From Collimonas silvisoli (GTDB taxonomy: Bacteria > Pseudomonadota > Gammaproteobacteria > Burkholderiales > Burkholderiaceae_D), in NCBI RefSeq assembly GCF_018305005.1, contig NZ_JAGQEG010000044.1, positions 1-45,053 of the forward strand: 45,053 nt of DNA, given 5' to 3'. Numbering within the stretch: the first letter of the stretch is position 1; each line of letters begins with the position of its first letter. Positions 30,898 to 45,053 of this stretch are shown piece by piece. The notes under the pieces are model-generated. The model did no database searches. It had not been told where the DNA came from and saw only the letters and a program-made list of their open reading frames with translations. The position numbers and the translations under genes are program-made.

Positions 30898-31866
30898 GTG
30901 CGCCATCTCCTGCCTTCGCTTCCCGTTTCATTGCTGCCATTGCACAACGTCATTTCTGCCTCATCACGACATATCAAAAAGATCATTTCCGGTTTGATCG
31001 TGATTTTCGTGACGATCGGTGCTACAGGTTGCGCTATTGAACCGGTTCCTGTGTCGCCTCAAACTACCGAGCGATTGAAATCTCAACCGCCGATTCGGTT
31101 CCTGCTGACTTTCGACGATGGCCCGGCCAGACCAAGGACTGACAATCCGACGCTATCCATACTGAACACGCTCGCGCACAATCCGCTGCAACCCGGCATC
31201 AAAGCCCTCTTTTTTGTGCAAACCCGTTCATCTGGTGCTGGTGAGACGGACTTTGGGCGAAACATACTGCGGCGTGAAATTGATGAAGGGCATTTGCTTG
31301 GCTTTCATACTGCCACGCCACGCCATGCAAACCATCGCTTCCTCAGCCCCGAAATATTCGAGCAATCGCTAAACGATGGCATTGCCGACATTGCTGCCAT
31401 TCAGGGAAGCGCGCCGAAACTGGTTCGGCCGCCGTTCTGGAACTACGACAAGCGTACTTTTGATGTTTACCAACAGCATGGCATGCACATTTTGCTGACC
31501 GATTTGAGCGCGAACGACGGCAAGATATATGGCTTCAAGGCCAGCCTGAGAAGACGCTCCAACATGCTGCATCTGTTGACTGACGTGCGCGAGCGGATTG
31601 CCGCAGGCGAGTTGCCGGCGGTCGATGGAAGCATCCCGGTGGTGGTGACTTTTCACGATATAAATAGTTACACCGCCGATCATATGGCGGAATATTTGCA
31701 GATACTGATGGATTGCGCGCGTGCGGTCCAGCTGCCGACTGCAACCCAGCCGTTTTACGACGACAAGGCCGCGCTGGAACATGCCGCCCTGGCAAGAAGC
31801 ATGCGTGACAGTGCACAAGTTGCGCGCCTGCCCGGGTTCTGGAACTGGCTATGGGAGCGGATATAG
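30898..31866 (+). CDS. NodB-type polysaccharide deacetylase, predicted lipoprotein
   Basis: A 322-residue protein with an N-terminal hydrophobic segment ending in a lipobox-like IGATGC (Cys at about 49), then a NodB domain. Motif 1 is LTFDDGP (the catalytic and metal-binding Asp), motif 3 is VRPPFWNYD, and VVVTFHDIN supplies a conserved His. Motif 2 is unusual, reading HTATPRHANH instead of the compact HSxxH, so the metal ligands are spaced differently. Such enzymes remove N-acetyl or O-acetyl groups from chitin-like, peptidoglycan or exopolysaccharide chains; the substrate is unknown. The start is taken as GTG at 30898 and is uncertain; a later start near residue 19-40 would still leave the signal. 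It is convergent with the pigment cluster and not part of it. Confidence 0.8.
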   Translation: MRHLLPSLPVSLLPLHNVISASSRHIKKIISGLIVIFVTIGATGCAIEPVPVSPQTTERLKSQPPIRFLLTFDDGPARPRTDNPTLSILNTLAHNPLQPGIKALFFVQTRSSGAGETDFGRNILRREIDEGHLLGFHTATPRHANHRFLSPEIFEQSLNDGIADIAAIQGSAPKLVRPPFWNYDKRTFDVYQQHGMHILLTDLSANDGKIYGFKASLRRRSNMLHLLTDVRERIAAGELPAVDGSIPVVVTFHDINSYTADHMAEYLQILMDCARAVQLPTATQPFYDDKAALEHAALARSMRDSAQVARLPGFWNWLWERI

Positions 31867-31966: not shown

Positions 31967-32686
31967 TCAGTCGCCGTCCAACTGTTGCGACCAGGCCGAC
32001 GGCGTAGCGCCAAGCAGGCATATCCGCGGCGCTACCGAGTGCAAGCGATTGCCGCTGCATAGCGTAATTACCAAGCCTTGCTGTGACCAGGTACGCGCAT
32101 GCCATCCTGGCCCTGATCGCAAACGTGCCCCCGCAACTACCTGCTCAACTACCTGCTCAGATGATGAAGTACCTCTGCGCTGAGACGACATAAGTTTAAA
32201 CAGCGCCTCTTTGCTGCTCCACAAGGTATAAAAGTTCGCCACCTTATCTTCAGCGGGACGGCTGGATAACCAGTTGCTCTCGGCCGCAGAAAAAGCCGCG
32301 CGGCCAATAGCATCCACATCGCGTTCGGCATCCAGCATCTCTATGTCGAGACCCAGAGCCGTATCAACGCTGGCGGCACAAGCGACCCAGCCGCGGCTAT
32401 GCGACAAGCTGAAGCGAGGGTGCATAGTGCTGGCAACGGGCAGTTGCACCAATGGCGCTTGGTTTTTACGCTCGGTGACATGCACGGCATCAGGCCCGAT
32501 GCCGGCCAGGCGCGAGACAGCAAAGCGCAGCAATATCCGGCCTAATAAAAATTCACGCTGACGCAGCGGCCGCAGGAAACGCCGGTAACGCAACCGCTCC
32601 GTTTCACTTAAACAGGCAAGAAAACGGTCGCGATCGTGATCCGCCAGTTGATTGGCGTTGTGCAGAAAAATGACAGCGGATGGCAT
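31967..32686 (-). CDS. 4'-phosphopantetheinyl transferase (Sfp-type)
   Basis: A 239-residue Sfp-type transferase. The magnesium-binding LGLDIE (Asp114, Glu116) and the second signature WSSKEALFK (156-164) are intact. It would load phosphopantetheine onto the acyl carrier proteins of the aryl polyene synthase. It begins 8 nt after the ketosynthase stop and ends the cluster. The segment EQVVEQVV (177-184) comes from a perfect 12-bp tandem duplication at 32136-32159 and lies in the loop after the catalytic helix, so it is probably tolerated. Confidence 0.92.
   Translation of the reverse strand: MPSAVIFLHNANQLADHDRDRFLACLSETERLRYRRFLRPLRQREFLLGRILLRFAVSRLAGIGPDAVHVTERKNQAPLVQLPVASTMHPRFSLSHSRGWVACAASVDTALGLDIEMLDAERDVDAIGRAAFSAAESNWLSSRPAEDKVANFYTLWSSKEALFKLMSSQRRGTSSSEQVVEQVVAGARLRSGPGWHARTWSQQGLVITLCSGNRLHSVAPRICLLGATPSAWSQQLDGD
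32136..32159. repeat. Perfect 12-bp tandem duplication in the PPTase gene
   Basis: ACTACCTGCTCA occurs twice head to tail (plus strand), encoding EQVV twice on the minus strand. The period is a multiple of three, so the frame is kept. Confidence 0.9.
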
Positions 32687-32694
32687 TTGCGGCG

Positions 32695-33939
32695 TTAATC
32701 CAGGCGCTTGAAGATCAACGATGTATTGATGCCGCCGAACGCAAAATTATTCGACATGAAATATTCGCATTGCAAACTACGTCCCTGATCGACAATGTAG
32801 TCCAGGTCAGCGCATAGCGGATCCACTTGTTTCAGATTGATGGTCGGCGCAAACCAGTCGGAACGCATCATTTCGATGCCGATCCAGGCTTCCAGAGCGC
32901 CGCAGGCGCCTAGCGTATGTCCGGTATAACTCTTGAGTGAACTGATAGGCGTGCGCCGGCCAAATACGGCAGCGGTTGCGTAGGACTCGGCAATATCGCC
33001 CTGTTCGGTGCCGGTGCCATGGGCATTGATATAGCCAATCGCTTCTACCGGCAATGCGGCGTCAGCCAGCGCCAGCGTCATCGCCACCTGCATGGTATCG
33101 GCGTTCGGATGGGTGACGTGACAGCCGTCGCTATTGGTGCCAAAGCCGACGATTTCGGCGTACATCTTTGCGCCTCTGGCACGCGCGTGTTCGAAATCTT
33201 CCAGAATCAAGCTGCCCGCGCCCTCGCCTATCACCAAACCATCGCGGTTGCTGTCAAATGGACTAGGCGTCATGGCCGGCGTGTCATTGCGCACGCTGGT
33301 GGCAAACAGCGTATCGAACACCGCCGCTTCGGTAGCGCACAATTCTTCGGCGCCGCCGGCGATCATGATTTGCTGGCGGCCGCCGCGGATTGCTTCATAA
33401 GCGTAGCCAATCCCCTGGCTGCCGGAAGTACAGGCGCTGGAAGTGGTGATCACCCGCCCGGTAATGCCGAAAAACACACCGATATTGACCGGCGCGGTGT
33501 GCCCCATCATTTTGATATAGGTAGTAGCGGTGATACCGCGCGTACTGCGTTCATCCATCATCCTGCCAAAATCGCCGATCGCCGTCGGCGTACCGGCGGA
33601 AGAGCCGTAGGCGATTCCGCAGGCGCCGCTTTTCAGCACCGGATCGTCAATCAGGCCGGCATCGATCAGGGCCAGTTCGCTAGCGCGGGTCGCCATCAAA
33701 GCGACCCGTCCCATGCTGCGCATGGTCTTGCGGTTATAGCGATCGGACAAGGTGAATTCTGCGGCAGGGGCGCCCAACTGGGTGTTCAAGCCATCGTAAC
33801 CGGCCCAGTCTTCCATGCGTACTACGGCGTTGCGATAACTGCCGAGATGAGCGCGAATGCTGCTCCAGTCGTTACCGATCGGGCTGATGCCGGCCATGCC
33901 GGTCACCACTACCCGACGTGCTGTTGCTGTGCCGGTCAT
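32695..33939 (-). CDS. Beta-ketoacyl-ACP synthase (FabF-type), ApeR-like
   Basis: A 414-residue KAS II-type condensing enzyme with the catalytic Cys170 in TSSACTSGS, His307 in NAHGTGTEQGD and His341 in YTGHTLGACG. The TGMAGISPIG N-terminus and C-terminal NNFAFGGINTSLIF are family features. With the second ketosynthase, ketoreductase and dehydratase in this cluster it would extend the polyene chain on a carrier protein. In the E. coli APE cluster the matching positions are ApeO and ApeR; this one corresponds in order to ApeR. Its ATG overlaps the ketoreductase stop by 4 nt. Confidence 0.94.
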   Translation of the reverse strand: MTGTATARRVVVTGMAGISPIGNDWSSIRAHLGSYRNAVVRMEDWAGYDGLNTQLGAPAAEFTLSDRYNRKTMRSMGRVALMATRASELALIDAGLIDDPVLKSGACGIAYGSSAGTPTAIGDFGRMMDERSTRGITATTYIKMMGHTAPVNIGVFFGITGRVITTSSACTSGSQGIGYAYEAIRGGRQQIMIAGGAEELCATEAAVFDTLFATSVRNDTPAMTPSPFDSNRDGLVIGEGAGSLILEDFEHARARGAKMYAEIVGFGTNSDGCHVTHPNADTMQVAMTLALADAALPVEAIGYINAHGTGTEQGDIAESYATAAVFGRRTPISSLKSYTGHTLGACGALEAWIGIEMMRSDWFAPTINLKQVDPLCADLDYIVDQGRSLQCEYFMSNNFAFGGINTSLIFKRLD

Positions 33940-34703
33940 GCCATGCCTCCGTTAACCGAAATCACCTGGCGCGTGATATATGCAGCGTCGCCATGCATCA
34001 GGAAAGCCACCGTCGCCGCCACTTCCTCCGGTTTGCCGACCCGACGCGCAGGAATCAGCTTGAGCGCTTCATCCAACGGCGCCTCATCGATCATGTCGGT
34101 CTCTATCAAACCAGGCGCGACGCAATTGACCGTGATGTTGCGCTTGGCAAGTTCGATCGCCAGTGCTTTGGTAGCGCCGATAATCCCCGCCTTGGCCGCG
34201 CTGTAGTTGACTTGGCCGCGGTTGCCAATCAATCCCGATACCGAAGCCAGAGTCACGATACGGCCAGGCGCACGGCGCTGCACCAACGGCATCACCAGGG
34301 GATTGAGGACATTGTAGAAACCATCCAGATTGGTCTTCAGGACCAGATCCCAATCCTCCCCCGGCATGGCAGGAAAAGCATTGTCGCGCGCCACGCCGGC
34401 GTTGCACACCACGCCGTAGTAACAGCCGTGCTGCTCGACGTCTGCCAGCAAGGCAGCGGCGCTGGTCTCGCGATCGCCTATGTCGAATTGCAAGACGCGC
34501 GCCTGCATGCCCAGCTCGCGCACGCTCTGCGCCACTGCGTCAGCTGCCTCACGTTGCCGATGGCAATGCAATACGATATCGTAACCGTCGCGCGCCAATC
34601 GCAATGCAATCGCTTTGCCGATCCCTCGGCTGGAGCCGGTGACCAGCACGGTCTTGTCTAGCCTGGTAGTTGGGGGTTCTGCCATGTTCAATTCCAACGT
34701 CAT
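33936..34703 (-). CDS. 3-ketoacyl-ACP reductase (FabG-type SDR), ApeQ-like
   Basis: A 255-residue short-chain dehydrogenase with NAD(P)-binding TGSSRGIG (22-29), the NAG motif at 101-103, and the catalytic Ser154, Tyr167 and Lys171 (YSAAK). It reduces the beta-keto group formed by the ketosynthases. Its ATG overlaps the dehydratase stop (ATGA), and its stop overlaps the next ketosynthase start the same way. A second in-frame ATG at 34685 (MAEPPTTRL) would shorten the N-terminus by six residues. Confidence 0.95.
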   Translation of the reverse strand: MTLELNMAEPPTTRLDKTVLVTGSSRGIGKAIALRLARDGYDIVLHCHRQREAADAVAQSVRELGMQARVLQFDIGDRETSAAALLADVEQHGCYYGVVCNAGVARDNAFPAMPGEDWDLVLKTNLDGFYNVLNPLVMPLVQRRAPGRIVTLASVSGLIGNRGQVNYSAAKAGIIGATKALAIELAKRNITVNCVAPGLIETDMIDEAPLDEALKLIPARRVGKPEEVAATVAFLMHGDAAYITRQVISVNGGMA

Positions 34704-35233
34704 TCACTACTTCCCTCAAGAAAAACAGCCGCATCAGCCGGCTGAAACACGGTAACGGTGGCGTTGGCCAGTTGCTGCCCGGCGGCGTGGATATGGCATT
34801 CGAACGATCCAATCCCGTTGTCTGCCTGCAGTATTCTGTGCACATGTACCTTCAACACGCTGCCGATTGCAAAATAGGAACAATTGGCTTCGTAGCGCCG
34901 GGTGCCCAGCAAAAAACCAATCTTCACCGCCTCGTTGCGCAACTGCGCGGCATAACCGGCGTAGGCGGCAATTGCCTGCGCCATGTACTCGACGCCGACC
35001 CAGCCAGGTACGCCATGTGCGTCGCAGAACATACTGTCCGGCCGGATAGTCACCTCAGCCCATAAATCTTCGGGCCCGGCTTCCAGCAGCAGGTCCAGCA
35101 ATACCATAACACCGGAGTGCGGTAAAAAACGGCGAATATCCAGAGCCTCGACCGTGCTTGATTGACTCATGTTGAATTGACTCATGTTCAATTGACTCTT
35201 GCTCAATTGAACAATGCTTGACTGACTCATCAT
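34700..35233 (-). CDS. 3-hydroxyacyl-ACP dehydratase (hotdog), ApeP-like
   Basis: A 177-residue hotdog-fold protein with RRFLPHSGVMVLLDLLLEAG near the N-terminus (PHxxxM is typical of FabA/FabZ-like enzymes) and PGWVGVEYMAQAIAAYAG in the central helix, which carries the conserved Glu. It would dehydrate the 3-hydroxyacyl intermediate to the conjugated double bond. The first 27 residues are a Met/Ser/Gln/Asn-rich repeat encoded by a 15-bp tandem repeat. The start at 35233 overlaps the ketosynthase stop by 4 nt; ATGs inside the repeat at 35185 and 35170 would give versions closer to the family length. Confidence 0.9.
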   Translation of the reverse strand: MMSQSSIVQLSKSQLNMSQFNMSQSSTVEALDIRRFLPHSGVMVLLDLLLEAGPEDLWAEVTIRPDSMFCDAHGVPGWVGVEYMAQAIAAYAGYAAQLRNEAVKIGFLLGTRRYEANCSYFAIGSVLKVHVHRILQADNGIGSFECHIHAAGQQLANATVTVFQPADAAVFLEGSSE

Positions 35234-35236
35234 TCA
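35162..35236. repeat. Five-copy degenerate 15-bp tandem repeat at the dehydratase start
   Basis: Units on the plus strand begin at 35162, 35177, 35192, 35207 and 35222. The first two, TTGACTCATGTTGAA and TTGACTCATGTTCAA, differ at one base; the third differs at two more, and the last two are more diverged. The array spans the overlap between the ketosynthase stop and the dehydratase start. Confidence 0.85.
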
Positions 35237-36417
35237 CGCCCCAACAGCAAACTTGCATTAGCGCCGCCAAATGCAAAAGAGTTACTCAAAGCCAAGCGCA
35301 AAGGTCGTCCGAGACGGGCGCCGATGGGCAACAGATTGAGCTGCGGCAAACCAGGATCGCTGAGGCCATCCCACAAATGCGGCGGCAACTTGCCCTGCGG
35401 ATTATTGTCCTGCATGGCCAGCCAACACAAACCCGCCTCGACCGCACCGGCTGCTCCCAGCGCGTGACCGGTGAAAGGCTTGGTCGAGCTGAGCGCCACA
35501 TGGTCTGCGAACATGGCGGCAACCGCCCGCCCTTCCATGGCATCGTTTTGCACGGTAGCAGTGCCATGCAAGTTGATGTAATCGATTTGTTGCGGCGTTA
35601 CGCCGGCGCGCGCCAGAGCTTGTGCCATCGCTCTGCGAGCACCCGCGCCGGACGGATCCGGCGCTGAAATATGATAGCCATCTGAAGATTCGCCCCAACC
35701 GCGCAAACTCACGGTTGCCTCAGCCTTGCTCATCAAGAACAAGGCAGCGCCCTCCCCGATATTAATGCCGTTGCGATTGGCGCTGAACGGATTGCAGCGC
35801 GCTACGCTGACCGATTCCAGCGCGGCAAAGCCGGCCACAGTAAAGGCGCACAGAGAATCAACCCCGCCGGTCAACACCGCATCGCATAAGCCCATATTGA
35901 TCAAACGCGCAGCGCTAGCCATGGCCTTGCTGCTCGACGCACAGGCGCTGGAATGCACATACGCGGGCCCGGTCACGCCCAGCACCGATGCCAGCGTCGC
36001 CGCCGGCGAAGCCATTTCTTGCTGCGCATAACCGAAATCGGCAGGAAACTCACCGTTCGCCAGCCGATAGCGGAACGCCGCTTCGCTCTGCGCTATGCCA
36101 GAGGTGCTGGTACCAAGCACGATCGCCACCCGGTCCGCGCCAAACTGTTGTATGGCCGCATCCACTTGCGGCCGGATCTGCGCCAGCGCCGCCAATGCCA
36201 GTTGATTGTTGCGGCTGCGCTGGCCCAACGGCAAGCCGCTGATATCCGGCAGAACAGTCTCCACGCAACCCAGCGCCAGACTCTGCTCCGGCGCCCGTCC
36301 CGACGAATAGCGCGGCGTCATGGCAACGCCGCTGTCACCAGCGAACAGGCGGCGGCTGATCTCCGCGTGGTTTTCACCAAGCGGACAAATCATGCCGAGT
36401 TGATTGAGATAAAGCAT
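35230..36417 (-). CDS. Beta-ketoacyl-ACP synthase, ApeO-like
   Basis: A 395-residue condensing enzyme with the catalytic Cys159 in HSSACASSS, His284 in NLHGTATVQND and His318 in FTGHALGAAG. The N-terminus is truncated relative to FabF (it begins MLYLNQLGMICPLGE), which is usual for the ApeO branch. It would act with the ApeR-like enzyme to elongate the polyene. It starts 2 nt after the DUF3261 gene and overlaps the dehydratase start by 4 nt. Confidence 0.93.
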   Translation of the reverse strand: MLYLNQLGMICPLGENHAEISRRLFAGDSGVAMTPRYSSGRAPEQSLALGCVETVLPDISGLPLGQRSRNNQLALAALAQIRPQVDAAIQQFGADRVAIVLGTSTSGIAQSEAAFRYRLANGEFPADFGYAQQEMASPAATLASVLGVTGPAYVHSSACASSSKAMASAARLINMGLCDAVLTGGVDSLCAFTVAGFAALESVSVARCNPFSANRNGINIGEGAALFLMSKAEATVSLRGWGESSDGYHISAPDPSGAGARRAMAQALARAGVTPQQIDYINLHGTATVQNDAMEGRAVAAMFADHVALSSTKPFTGHALGAAGAVEAGLCWLAMQDNNPQGKLPPHLWDGLSDPGLPQLNLLPIGARLGRPLRLALSNSFAFGGANASLLLGRE

Positions 36418-36419
36418 GC

Positions 36420-37043
36420 TTATGGCGCCGGAGTGTCAGCGGCAGTATCGCTGACCGATTCGATCGTCAAGCGATAGTGATAGCGCAGGTTATTCAGTTC
36501 CACTTTGCCGCCCCACGGCGTCGGCGTGCTGTAGTTGATTACCATCACTGTTTCTCCTTGCAACGACAGGGTTCGCTGCAATCCTTGTTGCTCGATTGCC
36601 CAGCCCGCGGGCAGCGCCTGGCGAATCGCCGCCAGTGGCCACAATGTCAATTGCGTATCTTCCAACACATCTTCGGCCCGTACCTGGGACGGCAGCATAG
36701 GATGACGCCAGGATTGCAAAGTCTGTCCATCATAATGCAGGCTCAGGACCCGCTGGCCAAACGCCAGTCCGACCATGGTGAATTGCTGTTGATCGATTTC
36801 CACCGCGGCATCGAGCTGATCGATACGACCGTTGCGTTCAACCGTCAAATGCTGTTGCAAACTGATATTGGCGCCTAAGGTTGCCGGCGCCAGTTTCAAT
36901 CCCAGCCGTGCCGGCGCTTGCGACGCCGGCGTAGTTGTACAAGAGGCCAGTAAAGAGGCTAGTACAAGCGCACCCAGCAGCATGCCAGACCGCAAGCCGC
37001 CAAGGCCCTGCCAGCCACTGCGACCAGGCAAGTTCAACTGCAT
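36420..37043 (-). CDS. DUF3261 lipoprotein, ApeN-like
   Basis: A 207-residue lipoprotein with a signal peptide and lipobox LLASC (Cys at about 35), then a beta-rich region containing LSLHYDGQTLQSWRHPMLP and TQLTLWPLAAIRQALPAGW, the DUF3261 pattern. The family is found in aryl polyene clusters beside an MMPL exporter and LolA-like protein and is thought to help move the aryl polyene lipid to the outer membrane; its exact role is unproven. GGAGG precedes the ATG, which overlaps the halogenase-like gene by 10 nt. Confidence 0.88.
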   Translation of the reverse strand: MQLNLPGRSGWQGLGGLRSGMLLGALVLASLLASCTTTPASQAPARLGLKLAPATLGANISLQQHLTVERNGRIDQLDAAVEIDQQQFTMVGLAFGQRVLSLHYDGQTLQSWRHPMLPSQVRAEDVLEDTQLTLWPLAAIRQALPAGWAIEQQGLQRTLSLQGETVMVINYSTPTPWGGKVELNNLRYHYRLTIESVSDTAADTPAP

Positions 37044-38278
37044 ATCTCCTCCAAAGTATTCAGGCGCCGCTTGCTTTCCTTTACATACGGATTGCTGTCA
37101 TCCCAAGCATAGCCGGCCAGGATCGCAGCAATCATGCGACGTATTTCCGGCTGCTGTTGTTCGTAAAAAATCACTTTCTGGAAGCCGCCCGAGTACCAGG
37201 AATCAACAAAGGTACGGAAAGTATCGACGCCTTTTTTCAGTGGAATTGCATATTCATTTTCCCAATCGACGGCTACTCCGGCAAACTGGCGCTGCAAGAT
37301 GGCGGCGGCCAGGCTGGCGGACTTGACGGCGATCGTGACTCCGGAAGAAAACACCGGATCAAGGAATTCCCCGGCGTTGCCAAGCAAAGCATACCCCTTG
37401 CCCCACAGCGACTTGACGTTGGAGGAGTAACCAACGATCTGGCGTGCCGGCGTATCCCAGCGGGCATTCTTCAGCAAGCTGCGCGATGCCGGATCTTGCA
37501 TTACCAGCGTCTGCAGGCGTTCGCTCTCGCTACCCTTGAATTGCTCCAGGAAAGCCGTTTCCGCCACCACGCCGATGGAACAGCGGCCGCCGGCAAAAGG
37601 AATCAGCCAATACCAGACATCGCAATGCTCCGGATGCACGGTAATGCGGATCTTGTTGCGATCGAAACCAGGCACATCGATGCCATCCTCAATGTGGGTG
37701 AAGATAGCGCCGCGCACCGGAAAATTCGATGGCGTTTCCAATGCCAGCAGGCGCGACAATACTCTTCCGAAACCGCTGGCGTCCAGCACAAAACCAGCTT
37801 CCACTATGTATTCCGAGCCGTCCGCCGAATCATCCATATGATGCACAGTGACCCGCGGCTTTTCTGCACTAGCATCAAATGCCGTGACGGTGTGCTGATA
37901 GCGCACTTGCGCGCCTTGGCGTTCGGCTTCATTGGCCAGCAATTGGTCGAAATGCGCGCGTTGCACTTGGTAGGTGGTGCCCCAGCCTGCAGAATGCTTG
38001 TCGCGGAAATCGAAGTCGGTGTAGCGCTCTCCGCGCACAAAGGCAGCGCCGTTCTTGTATTGAAAGCCGGCTTCCACCACGGCTTGCAACATACCCGCCT
38101 GCTGCAGATACTCCATGCTTTGCGGCAGCAGGCTTTCGCCTATGCTAAAACGCGGAAACTGTTCTCGCTCCAGCACCAGCACTTGCCGCCCTTGCTGCAA
38201 CAACAATGCGGCAGCCACCGAACCTGCCGGGCCGGCGCCAATTACCAGTACATCACACTGCTCAATTCTTGTTTGCAT
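37034..38278 (-). CDS. FAD-dependent oxidoreductase, flavin-dependent halogenase-like
   Basis: A 414-residue flavoprotein with the FAD-binding GAGPAG (residues 14-19) and GESLLP (47-52). Further on are Lys75 in GFQYKNGAAF at the place of the catalytic lysine of flavin-dependent halogenases, WYWLIP (222-227) matching WxWxIP, and FLDPVFSSG (305-313) matching the FxxPxxSxG motif. These are the hallmarks of halogenases acting on phenols or pyrroles bound to carrier proteins. A plain FAD oxidoreductase or hydroxylase cannot be excluded. It overlaps the MMPL exporter gene by 17 nt and the DUF3261 gene by 10 nt, so it is integral to the aryl polyene operon. Halogenation of the aryl head group, as in brominated xanthomonadins, is the favoured inference. 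Confidence 0.82.
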   Translation of the reverse strand: MQTRIEQCDVLVIGAGPAGSVAAALLLQQGRQVLVLEREQFPRFSIGESLLPQSMEYLQQAGMLQAVVEAGFQYKNGAAFVRGERYTDFDFRDKHSAGWGTTYQVQRAHFDQLLANEAERQGAQVRYQHTVTAFDASAEKPRVTVHHMDDSADGSEYIVEAGFVLDASGFGRVLSRLLALETPSNFPVRGAIFTHIEDGIDVPGFDRNKIRITVHPEHCDVWYWLIPFAGGRCSIGVVAETAFLEQFKGSESERLQTLVMQDPASRSLLKNARWDTPARQIVGYSSNVKSLWGKGYALLGNAGEFLDPVFSSGVTIAVKSASLAAAILQRQFAGVAVDWENEYAIPLKKGVDTFRTFVDSWYSGGFQKVIFYEQQQPEIRRMIAAILAGYAWDDSNPYVKESKRRLNTLEEICS

Positions 38279-40715
38279 TTTTTTCTTCTTTTCCCGGTTG
38301 TAAATCCTGGTTAAAACAAGGTGCGATCAACCAGACAATCGCAATTCCGATCAACATCGTGAATCCAAATGCATGCAACGGCGGCGTCGCGGACAACGCC
38401 AGCAAACCGAACGACAGCAAGGCGCTCGCTGCCGACAAACTGACCGTGAGCCAGGCGAAGCGATCGCGCTGCATGCCTTGTTCTTGCAAGAAAATGCCGT
38501 AGTCCACGCCAAGACCGAGAATCAGCATCAGCGCCAGCACATGAAACAGCTGCAAAGGCTGTCCCAGCAAGCCAAGCAAAGCCAGGGTAGCGATACTGGC
38601 GACGGCCGGCGGCGTCAGCACGCGCCAAGCCGCGCTACGGTAGCGTGCAAACAACAGCAGGTAGATTGCGGCGTAAGCACCTAGCAATACCCACCCCATA
38701 TATTGCCGGTAGTGGCCCAGCACTGAAGATATTTCGCTGACCTTGTCGACCCATGACACGCCATCCAGTTGCTCGGCGGCCTGCTTCAAGGTGGGCAGGT
38801 TGCCATAATTATCGAGCCCGCGCAAAGCGACGATGCTGGCGTAGACACTGCCTTGTGCGCCTTCGACCGCATTGTCGACTTTTCCCAGCCAAAGATGGCG
38901 CGACGGCTCGCTGGCGGCGCTCTTCAGAAATTCAGCCGGGGTAAGACCGTGGCCGCCATTCGCGCTTGCCGCCGCGCTCAGCGCCCTGCTGCGCATTTGC
39001 GCGATCCAGCTGTCGTCTTCTCCCAGTTGCGCCGCCAATGTCTTCAATGGGCCGTCTGCAGCAAGCAAGGCCTGCGTGACCAAAGCCCGATTCGCCGCTT
39101 GTGCCTGCAGCGACGGCGTCCAGTCAGACATCGCCTGATAGCCGCTGATGACACGCTTGGCAATCAAGGGTTCCAGCCGCTGCTTTAGCGTTTCCTCGCG
39201 CTGCAATACCTGTTCCGCGCTGGCGCCACGCACCAGGTAGAACTGCACCGGCGTTGGCGCATCGAGTAATTTCCCCAGCTTGATCTGATCCGCCAACAGT
39301 GCTTTCGGCGGTGTCTGCAAAGAGCGGATATCGTCGTTCACCGTCAGACGCATTATGCCGGCCACGGCAAAAATCCCGAACAATAGCGCTATCAGCGCCG
39401 AAGCGCGATTCAAGCGCAGCAACGGCCAATGCCGTCGAGTCTGGCCGACCCAGCGTGCAAAAGGCGAGCTTTTCAGCGTAGCCGCAGTTAACAATGTCGG
39501 AAACCAGAAAATTACCGTCAGCCAGGCGAACACCAAACCCAGCACCGAAAACAGTGCCATCTGCCGCAAACCCGGAAACGGCGTCAGCGCCAGGCCGATG
39601 TAACCGATCGCCGCGGCGGCCAGGGTCAATGCCAGGCCGGGCAACAGGCATCGCAGCAATTGCCAGGATCCCAGCGACTGATCGGCAGAAACCCGGCTGC
39701 ACAAGAAATAAATCCCATAATCCTGGGCCACGCCGATCAAGCTGGCGCCGAATACCAGCGTCAGCAAATGCACTTGTCCGAAAATCATCCAGCACAGGGA
39801 AAAGGCCGCCAGGCAGCCGATGCCGATCGACAGCATGATCAACGCAATCGGCCGCAATGAACGGAAGGTCAGCCACATCAGCAGTACGATGCCCAACAGC
39901 GAGCCGATGCCGATGGTCGACATCTCCCGGCTGGCTTGCGCACTGCCGGCTCCCGCATGCAGGACCACCCCGGCGCTAATCAGCTCGACCGCCGGCGCCG
40001 CCTGCCGCGCTGCTTTGCCAGCCTGTTCCAGCAGCGGCAACAATGCCTGTTGAGTCGCCATCGAAAATGCCGGCTGCCGCAAATTCATCAGCAGCATGAT
40101 GTAAGGACGCCCCTTGTCCTCGATGAACAGATAACCGTCGCGCGGGCGCACCGGCGTTTCCTGCGCACGGGCTTGCACCCAGCCGCTGAACAAGCCGAAC
40201 GGATCGTCTTGCCAGGCGCCCAGCTTAGGCCCGGAAAACGGGCTGTACAACTGCTGCAGCGCACTGTCGACCCAATATTTTGGGGATTGCGTACGCAGCG
40301 CTGTCTGTTGCGCCGGCGTCAGCAAGCTGAGCCGCATCTGTTGCGAGGGCGCCAGCCAGTCTTGCTGGTTTTGCGCCGACAGTTGAACCCCGCTCTGCAG
40401 CAGAGCCGGATGCTTGGCCAGCACCGCGCTGTAGGCGTCGGCAGCGGCGCGGGCATGCTCCCAGTCATCGGCGCCGACCAGTACGATCACGCGTTGCTGG
40501 GCGGCGTCGACCATATGCGTGAACGCCTGTTGCAGCACCGGGTCGCGCTGCTCGACCGGCAACAAGGCCAGGATGTCGGTGTCCGGCACCACGCCCTTGA
40601 CCAGCCACAGGTAGCCGCCATGCGCCAGCAGCAAGGCAACCGCCAAGGCCCATATCAGCGCCATGCGCCTCGGCCAACTGGTTTTCAAGTTGCCGCTGCG
40701 GCCGGAATCACTCAA
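38262..40715 (-). CDS. MMPL-family exporter, ApeM-like
   Basis: An 817-residue RND/MMPL-type transporter. The layout is one N-terminal helix, a large periplasmic loop, five or six helices (about residues 265-420), a second membrane helix near 440 and periplasmic loop (about 455-660), and a final set of helices. Repeated GVAQDYGIYFL and GLGVDYGIFLQ segments carry the conserved Asp-Tyr pair of the proton pathway. In aryl polyene clusters this protein is thought to move the lipid-linked product across or out of the inner membrane. The start overlaps the LolA-like gene by 8 nt. Confidence 0.93.
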   Translation of the reverse strand: MSDSGRSGNLKTSWPRRMALIWALAVALLLAHGGYLWLVKGVVPDTDILALLPVEQRDPVLQQAFTHMVDAAQQRVIVLVGADDWEHARAAADAYSAVLAKHPALLQSGVQLSAQNQQDWLAPSQQMRLSLLTPAQQTALRTQSPKYWVDSALQQLYSPFSGPKLGAWQDDPFGLFSGWVQARAQETPVRPRDGYLFIEDKGRPYIMLLMNLRQPAFSMATQQALLPLLEQAGKAARQAAPAVELISAGVVLHAGAGSAQASREMSTIGIGSLLGIVLLMWLTFRSLRPIALIMLSIGIGCLAAFSLCWMIFGQVHLLTLVFGASLIGVAQDYGIYFLCSRVSADQSLGSWQLLRCLLPGLALTLAAAAIGYIGLALTPFPGLRQMALFSVLGLVFAWLTVIFWFPTLLTAATLKSSPFARWVGQTRRHWPLLRLNRASALIALLFGIFAVAGIMRLTVNDDIRSLQTPPKALLADQIKLGKLLDAPTPVQFYLVRGASAEQVLQREETLKQRLEPLIAKRVISGYQAMSDWTPSLQAQAANRALVTQALLAADGPLKTLAAQLGEDDSWIAQMRSRALSAAASANGGHGLTPAEFLKSAASEPSRHLWLGKVDNAVEGAQGSVYASIVALRGLDNYGNLPTLKQAAEQLDGVSWVDKVSEISSVLGHYRQYMGWVLLGAYAAIYLLLFARYRSAAWRVLTPPAVASIATLALLGLLGQPLQLFHVLALMLILGLGVDYGIFLQEQGMQRDRFAWLTVSLSAASALLSFGLLALSATPPLHAFGFTMLIGIAIVWLIAPCFNQDLQPGKEEKNANKN

Positions 40716-41313
40716 ATGCCGCCCCTTCTTCCGCAGTCATCGCACTGCTGCCGCTTTGCAGGCCAGAAAAACTGATTTCCGTGTGATCGCCGCTGGCTTC
40801 GTTGATAGTCACCGTCTTGACGTAAGCGCCACCAGTCAGGGCCAATGTGCCGATGGCCTTGGCCAACGCCGGTTCGCGCGCTTTCAGCGCGACTTTCCAG
40901 CTATTGCCCTGCACGCTGCCGTCCAGTTCAAACAAGGTTTCCAGTTGTCCGAGATCGCCGGCCAGCAATGAGAACAGCACGCCGTTAATCATCCTGACTA
41001 CCGGTTCTTGCTTGGCGTCCATGCGCATGGCAACCCGATCGCCCTGCATTTGCACGATTTCGTCGCGCTTCAGGCGTAGCGTATTGGGAAACGGTTGCAA
41101 AGTGCGCCATAGAACGCCCTTGCCGTTCACCACGCAAAACCGACCGTTCGACAGCAATGGCTTCTTGATGCCGACCAGTTGCTTGCTTTGGTCGAAACGG
41201 CCGCACAAGATCGGCGGCCGCGCCAGCATAGCCTGGATTTTTTCCACTGGCGCGACAGCAAGCGCCGGCAAGGCGGTACTGACTAAAAGGATGGCGACAA
41301 AACTTCGTTTCAT
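40708..41313 (-). CDS. LolA-like periplasmic carrier, ApeL-like
   Basis: A 201-residue protein with a cleavable signal peptide (MKRSFVAILLVSTALPALA) and a LolA/LolB-type half-barrel pattern (ILCGRFDQSKQLVGIKKPLLS, VLWRTLQPFPNTLRLK). LolA-fold proteins carry lipids or lipoproteins across the periplasm; with the MMPL exporter and DUF3261 lipoprotein it makes a plausible transport route for the aryl polyene lipid. The start at 41313 is chosen for the signal peptide and the ATGA overlap with the thioesterase; an in-frame ATG-like start at 41364 would lie inside that gene. Confidence 0.87.
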   Translation of the reverse strand: MKRSFVAILLVSTALPALAVAPVEKIQAMLARPPILCGRFDQSKQLVGIKKPLLSNGRFCVVNGKGVLWRTLQPFPNTLRLKRDEIVQMQGDRVAMRMDAKQEPVVRMINGVLFSLLAGDLGQLETLFELDGSVQGNSWKVALKAREPALAKAIGTLALTGGAYVKTVTINEASGDHTEISFSGLQSGSSAMTAEEGAAFE

Positions 41314-41756
41314 ACTTGCTCGATTCCTAATTTTTGAAATAACACGGGCGGCGACGCAAAGCACATTTCGCGCGTCGCCATATCCACCGCAACCTGCGTC
41401 GTGGTGCCACGGCTAAGGCGCTGGCCGCTAACGCTGTCGGTAATCACGTAGGCGATCTTGAGCCGGTTTTCCCACTCGATGATGCTGGCGCGCACCTTGA
41501 CACGCTGCCCGAATGCTGCCGGATGAGCATAGCGCAGGTGCAAATCGATGATCGGCCAGGTATAACCGGACGCCTGCATTTCCGGATAGTTGTAATGCAA
41601 CATATCCAATAGCGCGCAACGCGCCACTTCCAGGTACTTGACGTAATTGCCGTGCCATACGATCAGCATGGGATCGAGATCAAAGAACTGCACTTGCAGC
41701 TCTACCTCTGCCGACCAGCGTTCTTTGGTATGCCAGCTAGTCACGGTTTTACTCAT
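41310..41756 (-). CDS. 4-hydroxybenzoyl-CoA-thioesterase-family hotdog protein, ApeK-like
   Basis: A 148-residue hotdog-fold protein with VQFFDLDPMLIVWHGNYVKYLE near the N-terminus. The FxDxDxM..V.H.xY pattern is that of the 4-HBT/YbgC family, with Asp26 or Asp28 as the likely catalytic residue. In the aryl polyene pathway it probably releases or edits acyl intermediates. It overlaps the ammonia lyase by 8 nt and the LolA-like gene by 4 nt. Confidence 0.9.
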   Translation of the reverse strand: MSKTVTSWHTKERWSAEVELQVQFFDLDPMLIVWHGNYVKYLEVARCALLDMLHYNYPEMQASGYTWPIIDLHLRYAHPAAFGQRVKVRASIIEWENRLKIAYVITDSVSGQRLSRGTTTQVAVDMATREMCFASPPVLFQKLGIEQV

Positions 41757-43344
41757 ACAACTGCCATTGCTTGAGGCGTATGCGCTCCAGCAGGCGGCGC
41801 AAATCCGGCTCCAGCATGCGGTCCTCCTGTATCACGGCAATGTCGGCCGCCAGCAATTCCATCATCTGCTGCAGATTCTGTTGCGGCCGCGCCGCGCCAT
41901 CAAGCCGGCAACGCAACCAGACTCCCTGGCGCACGCTGATCAACAGTGCGGCTACCACTTGTTCGGTCAGTTGCAGCACGCGCAGGCAATCACGGGCGGC
42001 AATCGTGCCCATGCTGACCTTGTCTTGATTGTGGCATTCGGTAGAACGCGAAAACACCGAAGCGGGCATGGTCTGCTTGAGCGCTTCGGCGGTCCACGCG
42101 GAGGCGCTGATTTGCAAGGCCTTCAAGCCGTGGTTAATGCTGGCGCGCGGCCCTTCGGCACCGGATAAATTGGCCGGCAAGCCGTGGTTGTAACGGCTAT
42201 CGACCAGCAAAGCCATCTGCCGATCGAGCAAATCGGCGACATTGGCGACAGCATTTTTCATGCTATCCATGGCGAACGCAATGTGGCCGCCGTAGAAATG
42301 GCCGCCATGCAGCACCCGCTCATTTTCAGCGTCGATGATCGGATTGTCGTTGGCGCTATTCAATTCGTTTTCAATCGACTCGCGCATCCAGGGCAAAGCA
42401 TCGGCCAGCACGCCGATCACATGCGGTGCGCAGCGGATGGAATAGCGATCCTGCAGACGTTTTTGATTGCGCGGTGCATCGTCCACCGGCAAATCCTGCC
42501 GCAGCCAGGCGGCCACTTGCTGTTGGCCCGCGTGTGGCTTGACGGCAAACAACGTGGCGTCGAAATGATGGGCGTTGCCATCCAGAGCGAAACTCGCCAT
42601 GGCGGTAATGCGGGTGGCGATACGCACCAGATATTGCGCACGGTCATAAGCCAGGCAAGCCAAGGCTGTCATTACCGCAGTGCCGTTCATGATCGCCAGC
42701 CCTTCTTTCGGCCGCAGGCGCAGTGGCGTAATACCGGCTGTCGCCAGGGCTTCTGCTGCGCCGACCTTGACGCCGTCGCGCCAGACTTCGCGTTCGCCGC
42801 ACAGCACTGCGGCCAGGTACGAAAGTGGCGTCAGGTCGCCACTGGCGCCGACCGATCCTTCGGACGGGATCAAGGGTAGCAAATCCTCTTTCAGCAAGCG
42901 GGCAATCTGTTCCAGCAGACCGACGCTAACGCCGGAGTAGCCTTTGCTGAGCGACGCCAGCCGCGCTGCCATGATGGCCCGTGTTTGCGCAGGGCTAAAC
43001 AGCTCACCCAAGCCGCAGCCGTGATAGGTGTACAAATGATGCGGCAATTCAGCGATCAGTTCGGACGGGACGTTAACGGTGCAGGAATCGCCATACCCGG
43101 TGGTGACGCCGTAAATGGTGCCATCCTCACGCAGCAGGCGATCCAGGAAATCGGCGCCGCGGCTAATCGCGGCACGGAACGCCGGCGCATCGGACAAGGC
43201 AACCTGCGCCGCTCCGGACGCGATATCGACAATGTCTTCGATCGTCAATCGGCCCTGGTCAAACAGGACGGCGCGTTGTCGAGGCGCCGGCGGCGTCAGC
43301 GATGCTGGTAGTGCAGACAGCTCTTTCAGTTCAGCGAGATGCAT
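41749..43344 (-). CDS. HAL/PAL/TAL-family aromatic amino acid ammonia lyase
   Basis: A 531-residue enzyme with the MIO-forming triad ASG at residues 167-169 in SVGASGDLTPLSYLA, the catalytic Tyr78 in GTIYGVTTGYGD, and the active-site region HGGHFYGGHIAFAMDS and HNQDKVSMG. It removes ammonia from His, Phe or Tyr. The substrate-selecting pair, which in known enzymes lies before the (G/A)xGxG turn, reads Tyr107-His108 (LYTYHGCGLGE), neither the Ser-His of typical histidase nor the His-Leu of tyrosine lyases, so the substrate is open. In this cluster a cinnamate or coumarate product could be the starter unit of the polyene, as tyrosine lyase does in flexirubin synthesis. It overlaps the acyltransferase gene by 14 nt. 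Confidence 0.93.
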   Translation of the reverse strand: MHLAELKELSALPASLTPPAPRQRAVLFDQGRLTIEDIVDIASGAAQVALSDAPAFRAAISRGADFLDRLLREDGTIYGVTTGYGDSCTVNVPSELIAELPHHLYTYHGCGLGELFSPAQTRAIMAARLASLSKGYSGVSVGLLEQIARLLKEDLLPLIPSEGSVGASGDLTPLSYLAAVLCGEREVWRDGVKVGAAEALATAGITPLRLRPKEGLAIMNGTAVMTALACLAYDRAQYLVRIATRITAMASFALDGNAHHFDATLFAVKPHAGQQQVAAWLRQDLPVDDAPRNQKRLQDRYSIRCAPHVIGVLADALPWMRESIENELNSANDNPIIDAENERVLHGGHFYGGHIAFAMDSMKNAVANVADLLDRQMALLVDSRYNHGLPANLSGAEGPRASINHGLKALQISASAWTAEALKQTMPASVFSRSTECHNQDKVSMGTIAARDCLRVLQLTEQVVAALLISVRQGVWLRCRLDGAARPQQNLQQMMELLAADIAVIQEDRMLEPDLRRLLERIRLKQWQLYE

Positions 43345-44293
43345 CTTTGTACCCGGATAAATGCCAAAAATCGTAAAAATTGAACCACTGCAGCGGAGCC
43401 TTTAGGCAAAATTGCTCCAATCTTGCCGCATAGGCGGCGGCCAGTTCATGCAGGACTTGATCGCGACTCTTGCGCGGCAAATGAATCGCTTCTCGAAACA
43501 ATTCGAAATGACATTCCGAGTGGCGGTTTTTTGTGATCGAAAACAACAGGTAGACCGGACACTGCAGCAAGCTCGCCAGTACATAAGGGCCGACCGGAAA
43601 GGCCGCTGTCTCGCCTAAAAATGAGGCGTGCGCCACGCGTGGCGTGGCCGACACCGGAATACGATCGCCGGCAATCGCCACAAACTCACCGCGCCCTACC
43701 TTCTCAGCCAGTAGCATGGCGGTGGCAGGCGTCATCTCGCTTACCTGCATCAGGTTCAACTGGCTGTCCGGATCAAGCTTTGCCAGCAGTCGGTTAAACG
43801 CCTGGGCGTGCTTGGTATGCACCAGCACCGTTATCCGCAGCTCGTGGCGCTGGCGCGACAATACCCGGCACAACTCCAGATTGCCAAGATGCGCACAAAT
43901 CAACAAACCGCCACGCTGCGTCTGTACGTTTGCCAGCATCTGTTCGCGGCCGAACGAAACTACGTCCGCGGTTTTGAACATGCCGCCCCACAACAACATC
44001 TTGTCGAGGATATTTTCGGCAAAAGCGGCAAAATGTTGAAACACTCCGCGCCAGCCCGGTCGAACCCGGTTAAGCCTGGCCGCGCTCGGATTAAAAGCAC
44101 AAAGCCGTTGCAAATAAGCTAAGGAAGCGCGCCGCGCCGCCGGTTTACTCAGCAAATACCAGCCTAGCACCGGATACAGTGTCAAACGAAACGGCCAGCG
44201 CCCGGCGATCCGGTATATCCAGAACAATAGCCGCATGCCGCTGACGAAGCCGGCTTCGTTGATCTGCGCCCAATGGCGCTGGTCCGCCCTCAA
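43331..44293 (-). CDS. LpxL/HtrB-like acyltransferase
   Basis: A 320-residue member of the LpxL/LpxM acyltransferase family with the HX4E motif in HLGNLE (His135 to Glu140) and typical NxYxxxxxE-like regions. It has an N-terminal hydrophobic segment. In aryl polyene clusters a paired acyltransferase and glycosyltransferase attach the chain to its lipid anchor. The TTG at 44293 overlaps the glycosyltransferase stop (TTGA) and begins MRADQRHWAQINEAG, the usual start of the family; a start at the ATG about 19 codons later is less likely. In some relatives the two domains are fused in one protein. Confidence 0.88.
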   Translation of the reverse strand: MRADQRHWAQINEAGFVSGMRLLFWIYRIAGRWPFRLTLYPVLGWYLLSKPAARRASLAYLQRLCAFNPSAARLNRVRPGWRGVFQHFAAFAENILDKMLLWGGMFKTADVVSFGREQMLANVQTQRGGLLICAHLGNLELCRVLSRQRHELRITVLVHTKHAQAFNRLLAKLDPDSQLNLMQVSEMTPATAMLLAEKVGRGEFVAIAGDRIPVSATPRVAHASFLGETAAFPVGPYVLASLLQCPVYLLFSITKNRHSECHFELFREAIHLPRKSRDQVLHELAAAYAARLEQFCLKAPLQWFNFYDFWHLSGYKDASR

Positions 44294-45053
44294 GATCGGC
44301 CTCGGCTTAAACCCAGGCGACGTCCAAGCAGACGCGGCGCACGCCAGAGCATGCCAAAGAACAAGGTGGCGTGCATACGGGAAATCAGCAGATTGTCGAG
44401 ACCGACGCGAAAATGGGAAATGCCGTCCGTGGGATAAGTCACGCGGGTCGGCAGATTGACGACGGGCACGCCGTCCCAGTACAGACGCACCAGCACCTCA
44501 GTATCGAAATTCATCCGCTCGCCCAGTTGCTTGCGTTGCGTCAGACGCATCAGGGACGGCAAGGGATAGACCCGGAATCCGCACATCGAATCCCTGATGT
44601 CCAGCGACAAGGTGTTAATCCAGACCCAGACATGAGTTAAATAGCGCGCATAGAAACGCACAGACGGCACACTGTCGTCATATTGAGGACAACCGGCAAT
44701 CAAGCTTTGCGGCTTGGCGGCGGCTTGTTGCAAAAACCGCGGAATATCGTCGGTGCAGTGCTGGCCGTCGGCATCGATCTGCAGCGCATGAGTATAGCCG
44801 GCAGCGGCAGCATGATGGACGCCAGTCAGCACCGCCCCGCCCTTGCCGCGATTGACGGCATGGCGCAACAAGGTGACTTGCCCGGGATGAGCGATTGCCA
44901 ATGCATCAAGTACCGTTGCGCACGAGGCCGAACTGGCGTCATCCACCAGTACGCAGGGCAAATCATGCGCCAGCACTGCCGCCAGCACCGCACCGATGGC
45001 ATGTTCATGGTTATAGACCGGGATCACCGCGCACGGCCTGAATTGCCCGGTTT
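44290..45053 (-). CDS. Family 2 glycosyltransferase, partial (N-terminus beyond window edge)
   Basis: The visible 253 codons encode a GT2 glycosyltransferase. They include PCAVIPVYNHEHAIG at the start of the nucleotide-binding fold, LVDDASS, the metal-binding QIDADGQH and SMCGFRVYP, a membrane segment and a basic C-terminus. The reading frame runs off the right edge in phase, and the codons before the GTG at 45027 continue the GT2 pattern, so the true start lies outside the window. It is the first visible gene of the aryl polyene unit and overlaps the acyltransferase by 4 nt. It would glycosylate or help anchor the product on a lipid. Confidence 0.9.
   Translation of the reverse strand, partial: TGQFRPCAVIPVYNHEHAIGAVLAAVLAHDLPCVLVDDASSASCATVLDALAIAHPGQVTLLRHAVNRGKGGAVLTGVHHAAAAGYTHALQIDADGQHCTDDIPRFLQQAAAKPQSLIAGCPQYDDSVPSVRFYARYLTHVWVWINTLSLDIRDSMCGFRVYPLPSLMRLTQRKQLGERMNFDTEVLVRLYWDGVPVVNLPTRVTYPTDGISHFRVGLDNLLISRMHATLFFGMLWRAPRLLGRRLGLSRGRS

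Follow-up and report, generated by a model that had tools for sequence, protein, structure and literature searches.

We describe a gene in a 45,053-nucleotide contig of Collimonas silvisoli (NZ_JAGQEG010000044.1; "the window" denotes this whole stretch of DNA) that encodes a halogenase-type flavoprotein within an aryl polyene (APE) gene cluster, a cluster type for yellow pigments that is widespread in bacteria. Participation of a halogenase-type enzyme in this APE pathway is strongly supported. The best explanation, which we hold with moderate confidence, is that the enzyme belongs to the phenol/pyrrole, carrier-protein type of flavin-dependent halogenases and tailors the head group in an ammonia-lyase-type ("flexirubin-like") APE pathway. 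By analogy with the family, halogenase chemistry is likely and the enzyme probably decorates the pigment ring; the chances that the final pigment of C. silvisoli is halogenated appear about even. The observations that underlie this interpretation are the motif set, the alignment of lysine 75 (K75), the predicted fold, the overlap with flanking genes of the operon and the recurrent linkage to APE genes.

The open reading frame (37034-38278, minus strand, ATG start) encodes 414 amino acids (aa) and contains the GxGxxG motif of FAD binding (GAGPAG, from residue 14 onward), the sequence GFQYK from residue 71 onward, of which K75 is the lysine, a WxWxIP motif (WYWLIP, residues 222-227) and an FxxPxxSxG motif (FLDPVFSSG, residues 305-313). 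The window has 160 open frames with a length of 100 aa or more; one contains WxWxIP and one FxxPxxSxG, and it is the same frame in both cases, so the motif set is not a chance occurrence. The lysine motif, WxWxIP and FxxPxxSxG are retained in all 55 proteins collected in genome searches (a set that includes the window protein and three proteins of the xanthomonadin type discussed below), and GxGPxG is present in 54 of the 55, the sole exception (L033) missing its N-terminus. All four motifs are also present in each of 80 named loci; these were retrieved with the peptide patterns FPRF[SV]IGES and [EG]FLDP[VI]FSS, so that the conservation of FxxPxxSxG among them is partly due to selection, whereas the lysine and WxWxIP are unaffected. 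In an alignment of 39 of these loci with the window protein, residues K75, W222, W224, I226, P227, F305, P308, S311 and G313 are invariant in all 40 sequences, FLDPVFSS again partly by selection. Database labels for the gene are "NAD(P)/FAD-dependent oxidoreductase" or "tryptophan 7-halogenase".

The protein scores 87.8 bits (E=9.6e-25) with the Pfam Trp_halogenase model, whose cut-off is 21. Among the best 60 of 71 solved sequences, the closest relative is 3nix (358.7 bits), followed by CndH, 8zop (FasV), Bmp2 (PDB entries 5bul and 5bva), ChlB4, Mpy16 (5buk), CmlS, PltA and RadH at 155-101 bits, PltM and CtcP at 62-59 bits and VibO at 45.6 bits, with the remaining proteins at or below 37.3 bits. 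When a profile of 40 clade sequences was compared with the solved sequences, 14 were found at E<=1e-15, every one of them a halogenase or 3nix. K75 stands opposite a lysine in all seven chains displayed (3nix, CndH, FasV, Bmp2, ChlB4, Mpy16 and PltA); in this alignment it is in register with the catalytic lysine of known halogenases, and its predicted placement in the active site is drawn from the sequence alignment of proteins with a common fold rather than from a residue-level superposition. A defence-system library yielded a single weak partial match.

The AlphaFold model of the protein (pLDDT 91.7, pTM 0.91) was compared with solved structures using Foldseek. In the best 50 rows, ranks 1-29 are all 3nix or halogenases, in the order 3nix (TM-score 0.92-0.93), PltA, Mpy16, ChlB4, FasV, Bmp2, RadH, CmlS, CndH, CtcP and PltM; the first hydroxylase appears at rank 30 and the first geranylgeranyl-reductase-like entry, which scores 27.3 bits by sequence, at rank 40. 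The modeled fold thus resembles halogenases more closely than it does hydroxylases or reductases. In a midpoint-rooted tree of 23 clade rows (window protein included), three xanthomonadin-type rows and seven PDB rows, the window clade together with 3nix comprises 24 rows with support of 100/99. The 3nix protein, from Cytophaga hutchinsonii and solved by structural genomics, is 42% identical to the window protein over its full length and has the lysine, WxWxIP and FLDP[VI]FSSG in common with it. PltA, Mpy16, ChlB4, Bmp2 and CndH share the fold (TM-score 0.72-0.85), the lysine and both motifs, but are only 25-29% identical to the window protein and act in other pathways on other substrates. We take these five enzymes to depend on carrier proteins.

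The halogenase-type gene is one of 13 genes on a single strand of the window, listed here in operon order:
44290-45027, minus strand: family 2 glycosyltransferase (GT2; profile match), stopping 26 bases short of the contig end
43331-44293, minus strand: lipid A-type acyltransferase, resembling one of the halves of the fused ApeJ (profile match)
41749-43344, minus strand: aromatic amino acid ammonia-lyase, HAL/TAL-like (profile matches)
41310-41756, minus strand: 4HBT-type thioesterase, ApeK-like (profile match)
40708-41364, minus strand: LolA-like carrier, ApeL-like (flexirubin LolA2 model match, under cut-off)
38262-40715, minus strand: MMPL/RND-type exporter, ApeM-like (Pfam and NCBIfam matches)
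37034-38278, minus strand: flavin-dependent halogenase-type protein, 414 aa (motifs, Pfam, sequence and fold searches)
36420-37043, minus strand: DUF3261 LolB-like protein, ApeN-like (profile match)
35230-36417, minus strand: beta-ketoacyl synthase (KS), ApeO-like (profile matches)
34700-35233, minus strand: ApeP-like dehydratase (PF22817)
33936-34703, minus strand: 3-ketoacyl-ACP reductase (KR), ApeQ-like (profile match)
32695-33939, minus strand: beta-ketoacyl synthase, ApeR-like (profile match)
31967-32686, minus strand: 4'-phosphopantetheinyl transferase (PF01648)

The halogenase-type gene shares 17 bp at its start with the exporter gene (end at 38262) and 10 bp at its end with the DUF3261 gene (start at 37043). 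The assignment of DUF3261 as ApeN-like follows the description of ApeN as a DUF3261/LolB-like protein (PMC8253772). In a congener (genome G003) the cluster continues with genes for an AMP ligase, ApeI, two open reading frames of acyl carrier protein (ACP) size, an acyltransferase and a chain-length factor; the window genes taken together with those of the congener make this an APE cluster of the ammonia-lyase type. The ammonia-lyase is the likely source of the aromatic starter. It carries Tyr-His in the sequence HLYTYHGCGLG, a position at which, by eye, we take tyrosine ammonia-lyases to have His-Leu and histidine ammonia-lyases Ser-His. The APE cluster of Escherichia coli (apeA-R) has the gene order thioesterase-LolA-MMPL-DUF3261-KS-dehydratase-KR-KS in common with the window; however, it lacks both a halogenase gene and an ammonia-lyase gene, contains a methyltransferase gene, and its MMPL gene directly adjoins the DUF3261 gene. 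A polysaccharide deacetylase gene (30898-31866, plus strand) adjoins the window cluster on the opposite strand, and arcuflavin loci likewise list a polysaccharide deacetylase, arcN (PMC3949708).

The linkage to APE genes recurs among relatives. Of 15 genomes in the genus, 14 have the gene, the C. silvisoli genome among them. At E<=1e-60 it is present in 17 of 369 genomes sampled across the class and in 30 of 299 sampled across the phylum, each count including the C. silvisoli genome; three further matches in the genus, 34-39% identical, belong to the xanthomonadin-type clade. Besides the window, these searches yielded 51 clade loci. Wide regions were taken for 35 of them, and L067 (11.4 kb) and L091 (4.9 kb), in which only the halogenase gene was recognized, were left out; the remaining 33, together with two matches in one further family and one Pseudoalteromonas record, make up 36 clade regions. 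All 36 contain KS_O-type and KR-type genes near the halogenase gene, with a chain-length factor in 34, an AMP ligase in 35 and an ammonia-lyase in 26. Both the overlaps with the exporter and DUF3261 genes and the membership in the pathway that the first-pass annotation had deduced from them are borne out, and the landmarks on which it had based the enzyme class (GAGPAG, Lys75, WYWLIP and FLDPVFSSG) are all found where it had placed them.

Among 71 full-length named loci, 59 have KR and KS_O hits both within 10 kb, and an ammonia-lyase hit is present in 58. The 12 loci without the KR and KS_O pair are nine of Photobacterium, Grimontia or Vibrio, one of Motilimonas and two of Cupriavidus; in loci L124, L130 and L139, other APE genes adjoin the halogenase gene. 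Named carriers among the matches listed include Photobacterium, Grimontia, Vibrio, Shewanella, Pseudomonas, Stutzerimonas, Acidovorax, Achromobacter, Cupriavidus, methanotrophs, Corallococcus and Glaciimonas; the nearest protein among the 39 aligned named loci is that of Glaciimonas immobilis (82%), and locus L201 of this species is arranged like the window cluster. The halogenase gene is matched in 54 of 121 genomes of one family, taken as Vibrionaceae, and no Aliivibrio is among the matches listed in the named-genome scan. In the two Cupriavidus loci L168 (9848-12016) and L177, the halogenase gene is followed by a ketoreductase gene, 74% like the window KR, and no APE gene besides this KR was recognized within 10 kb; Cupriavidus sp. 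amp6 has an additional clade locus, L166.

A mechanism proposed by analogy with the halogenase family would run as follows. FADH2 supplied by a separate flavin reductase would bind at the GxGxxG fold and react with O2 to the C4a-hydroperoxide, which would be attacked by a halide bound close to S312/G313 in the FLDPVFSSG motif. The resulting hypohalous acid would pass WYWLIP through a tunnel and reach K75, and this residue would deliver X+ ortho to the phenol of the aryl or aryl-polyenyl group, the substrate most likely being tethered to an ACP of the cluster. The substrate, its tethering to the ACP, the choice of halide and the retention of halogen in the final pigment are inferences only.

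Several observations weigh against a working halogenase, some of them concerning the protein and others the pigments. Of 14 control genomes, 5 (E. coli and three archaea among them) also contain matches above the cut-off of the Trp_halogenase model; this model is undiagnostic on its own, so the motifs and the sequence and fold comparisons carry the weight. No NCBIfam model reaches its cut-off among the best 25 of 67 matches, the CmlS model scoring 158.4 of the 900 bits required, and the halogenase group of 5wgv and its kin scores only 25-27 bits, below some non-halogenases. Furthermore, 3nix was deposited as an uncharacterized "flavoprotein/dehydrogenase", and the window clade sits on a long stem (1.63 changes per column), along which a change of function could have occurred. 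The last two points are compatible with an enzyme that has kept the halogenase fold and no longer halogenates, but instead hydroxylates or oxidizes the polyene or its aromatic head group, the kind of activity annotated for QhpG-type flavin monooxygenases. The clade indeed stands apart from the characterized halogenases, and both the QhpG model (103.4 bits) and the geranylgeranyl reductase model TIGR02032 (E=9.1e-34, 117.5 bits against a cut-off of 158.8) match the protein, albeit under their cut-offs. Nevertheless, K75, WxWxIP and FxxPxxSxG are kept in all clade proteins examined, and the fold and profile searches favor halogenases. We consider this the strongest alternative and still an unlikely one.

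With respect to the pigments, the observations point in both directions. Some flexirubins are chlorinated. The APE of Vibrio fischeri is said to carry methyl groups and no halogen. Its cluster has been called "flexirubin-like" (PMC10286705). Halogenase genes in APE clusters are already in print (Figure 5 legend of PMC3691225; Table 1 of PMC3949708), and a "probable halogenase" is named in PMC8776678. Speaking for halogen in the pigment, a halogenase gene is part of the xanthomonadin cluster in two Xanthomonas species and 0-2 Br are present in Xanthomonas pigments, while in Lysobacter enzymogenes the halogenase gene is missing and the pigment gives no bromine pattern (PMC3691225); Steroidobacter 35Y combines a xanthomonadin cluster with a dibrominated pigment (PMC5979037). 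Speaking against it, arcuflavin was assigned by mass spectrometry as an aryl heptaene without bromine, even though its cluster includes arcA, a gene with a halogenase annotation (PMC3949708), so a halogenase gene in a cluster is no guarantee of a halogenated pigment. No demonstrated activity of any window-clade member was found in the sources searched: the literature on halogenases with aryl polyene, xanthomonadin or flexirubin, subscription papers being mostly outside its scope, gave no title or abstract opening on a window-clade enzyme, and the available parts of PMC11839114, PMC11964084, PMC4528175, PMC7551054, PMC10202176 and PMC11021962 contain nothing on it.

The arcuflavin result, obtained with a halogenase gene of a different clade, and the variable bromine content of Xanthomonas pigments would also fit a working halogenase whose product carries halogen only transiently or substoichiometrically, because of halide starvation in the laboratory or later removal, so that isolated pigments look non-halogenated. 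However, the 13 scanned cluster genes of the window gave no match to a dehalogenase family, and no chemistry on the window clade or on C. silvisoli was found; we regard this scenario as improbable, slightly more so than loss of halogenation.

The xanthomonadin/arcuflavin-type halogenase is likewise encoded by a halogenase-type gene inside an APE-type pigment locus, and the window gene could be its orthologue, with a xanthomonadin-like brominated polyene as the product. However, the tree separates the two. The xanthomonadin-type rows L015-L017 form a clade of their own with support of 100/99 and are 34-39% identical to the window protein; the split joining them with CndH, FasV, PltA, Mpy16 and ChlB4, and thereby setting them apart from the window clade, has support of only 86/72, with three xanthomonadin-type rows, and Bmp2 is on a very long branch. 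Gene context differs as well. In locus L070 (of genome G021, whose protein is row L017), genes for MipA, the halogenase-type protein and an FkbO/Hyg5-type chorismatase lie side by side, followed by a GT2, a UbiE-type methyltransferase, two ACP-sized open reading frames and a weak AMP-ligase hit, as opposed to the ammonia-lyase cluster in the window. In Azoarcus BH72, arcC (MipA), arcB (XanB2 chorismatase) and arcA (halogenase) are adjacent (PMC3949708), the same three neighbors in a different order, and the L070 halogenase was typed as xanthomonadin/arcuflavin-type because of its MipA and chorismatase neighbors; a chorismatase hit is absent from the regions of L068 and L069, which belong to the same clade. 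Given the tree and the gene context, orthology is rejected as very improbable. Thus, the halogenase-type enzyme and its place in the APE pathway stand as the first-pass annotation had proposed, and its step from brominated xanthomonadins to this gene does not. Least probable of all is a flavoprotein that is only geranylgeranyl-reductase-like, which that annotation had named as an outcome that would overturn its reading: despite the TIGR02032 match, the score remains under the cut-off, the first such structure ranks low in the fold search and K75 aligns with the lysine of all seven chains, so this identity was rejected.

The separate clades suggest that two halogenase lineages have joined APE-type pathways; with the midpoint root, the three xanthomonadin-type rows and the long Bmp2 branch, the number of origins is suggested only. 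More broadly, and tentatively, APE clusters of Pseudomonas, Vibrionaceae, Shewanella, Burkholderiales, methanotrophs and Corallococcus, mostly of the ammonia-lyase type, might carry a dedicated halogenase lineage independent of that of xanthomonadin, a proposition to which we give somewhat less than an even chance. Halogenated aryl polyene lipids of the outer membrane would in that case form a common, overlooked product class, and xanthomonadin only one of two separate routes to halogenated aryl polyenes. The enzyme is of a known kind, and the wide spread of its lineage may be under-appreciated; an apparently uncharacterized halogenase lineage that recurs in APE clusters predicts chlorine or bromine isotope patterns for many genera. 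Should the enzyme prove non-halogenating, it would be a clean case for the limits of halogenase motifs as predictors.

Methyltransferase genes are neighbors in several of the loci that were viewed closely. Such a gene abuts the halogenase gene in L174 and L160 (Pseudomonas) and in L114, L124, L130, L139 and L213. A Methyltransf_2-type gene lies directly upstream in Grimontia, Vibrio, Motilimonas and genus g440, and a UbiE-like gene downstream in two Pseudomonas loci, overlapping the 3' end of the halogenase gene in L174. Examples of such pairs are L174:9995-11979, L114:1483-3828 and L213:15082-17427; in L114 and L213, the methyltransferase is of the Methyltransf_2 type, upstream, and in L213 the pair is divergent from the remaining cluster. 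Across the 71 full-length named loci, unfiltered searches that score presence anywhere in the locus gave 10 hits for the E. coli-type methyltransferase, 10 for the L114 type and 23 for the UbiE type, the first two probably hitting the same genes because they are the same protein kind by Pfam. In the 36 clade regions, filtered by best hit, the corresponding numbers are 0, 4 and 4, one of the four UbiE-type regions (G385) being a weak distant hit. The idea that the halogenase replaces the methyltransferase was dropped. The L114 methyltransferase has no match in the genome of the window, and no methyltransferase was found in the G003 cluster, so the halogenase-type enzyme is the only tailoring candidate seen there. 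As context rather than proof, the adjacency to methyltransferases suggests a role in head-group decoration.

A few homologues were found in other settings. Plasmid pAUEa of Aureispira anguillae (L207:10821-12074), the only Bacteroidota plasmid for which context is available, encodes a 44% identical homologue, with genes for an AMP-binding protein and for an MMPL/acyltransferase/methyltransferase fusion close by. Two records labeled Neisseria gonorrhoeae (H21 and H22; over 2 Mb, perhaps chromosomes) match in two pieces at about 55% identity. Finally, another contig of the C. silvisoli genome (L206:757-2595) encodes a second halogenase-like protein of 612 aa (Trp_halogenase, 1.3e-19), which contains WVWIIP, begins the FxxPxxSxG motif with T instead of F, and has CmlS and PltA as its best solved relatives.

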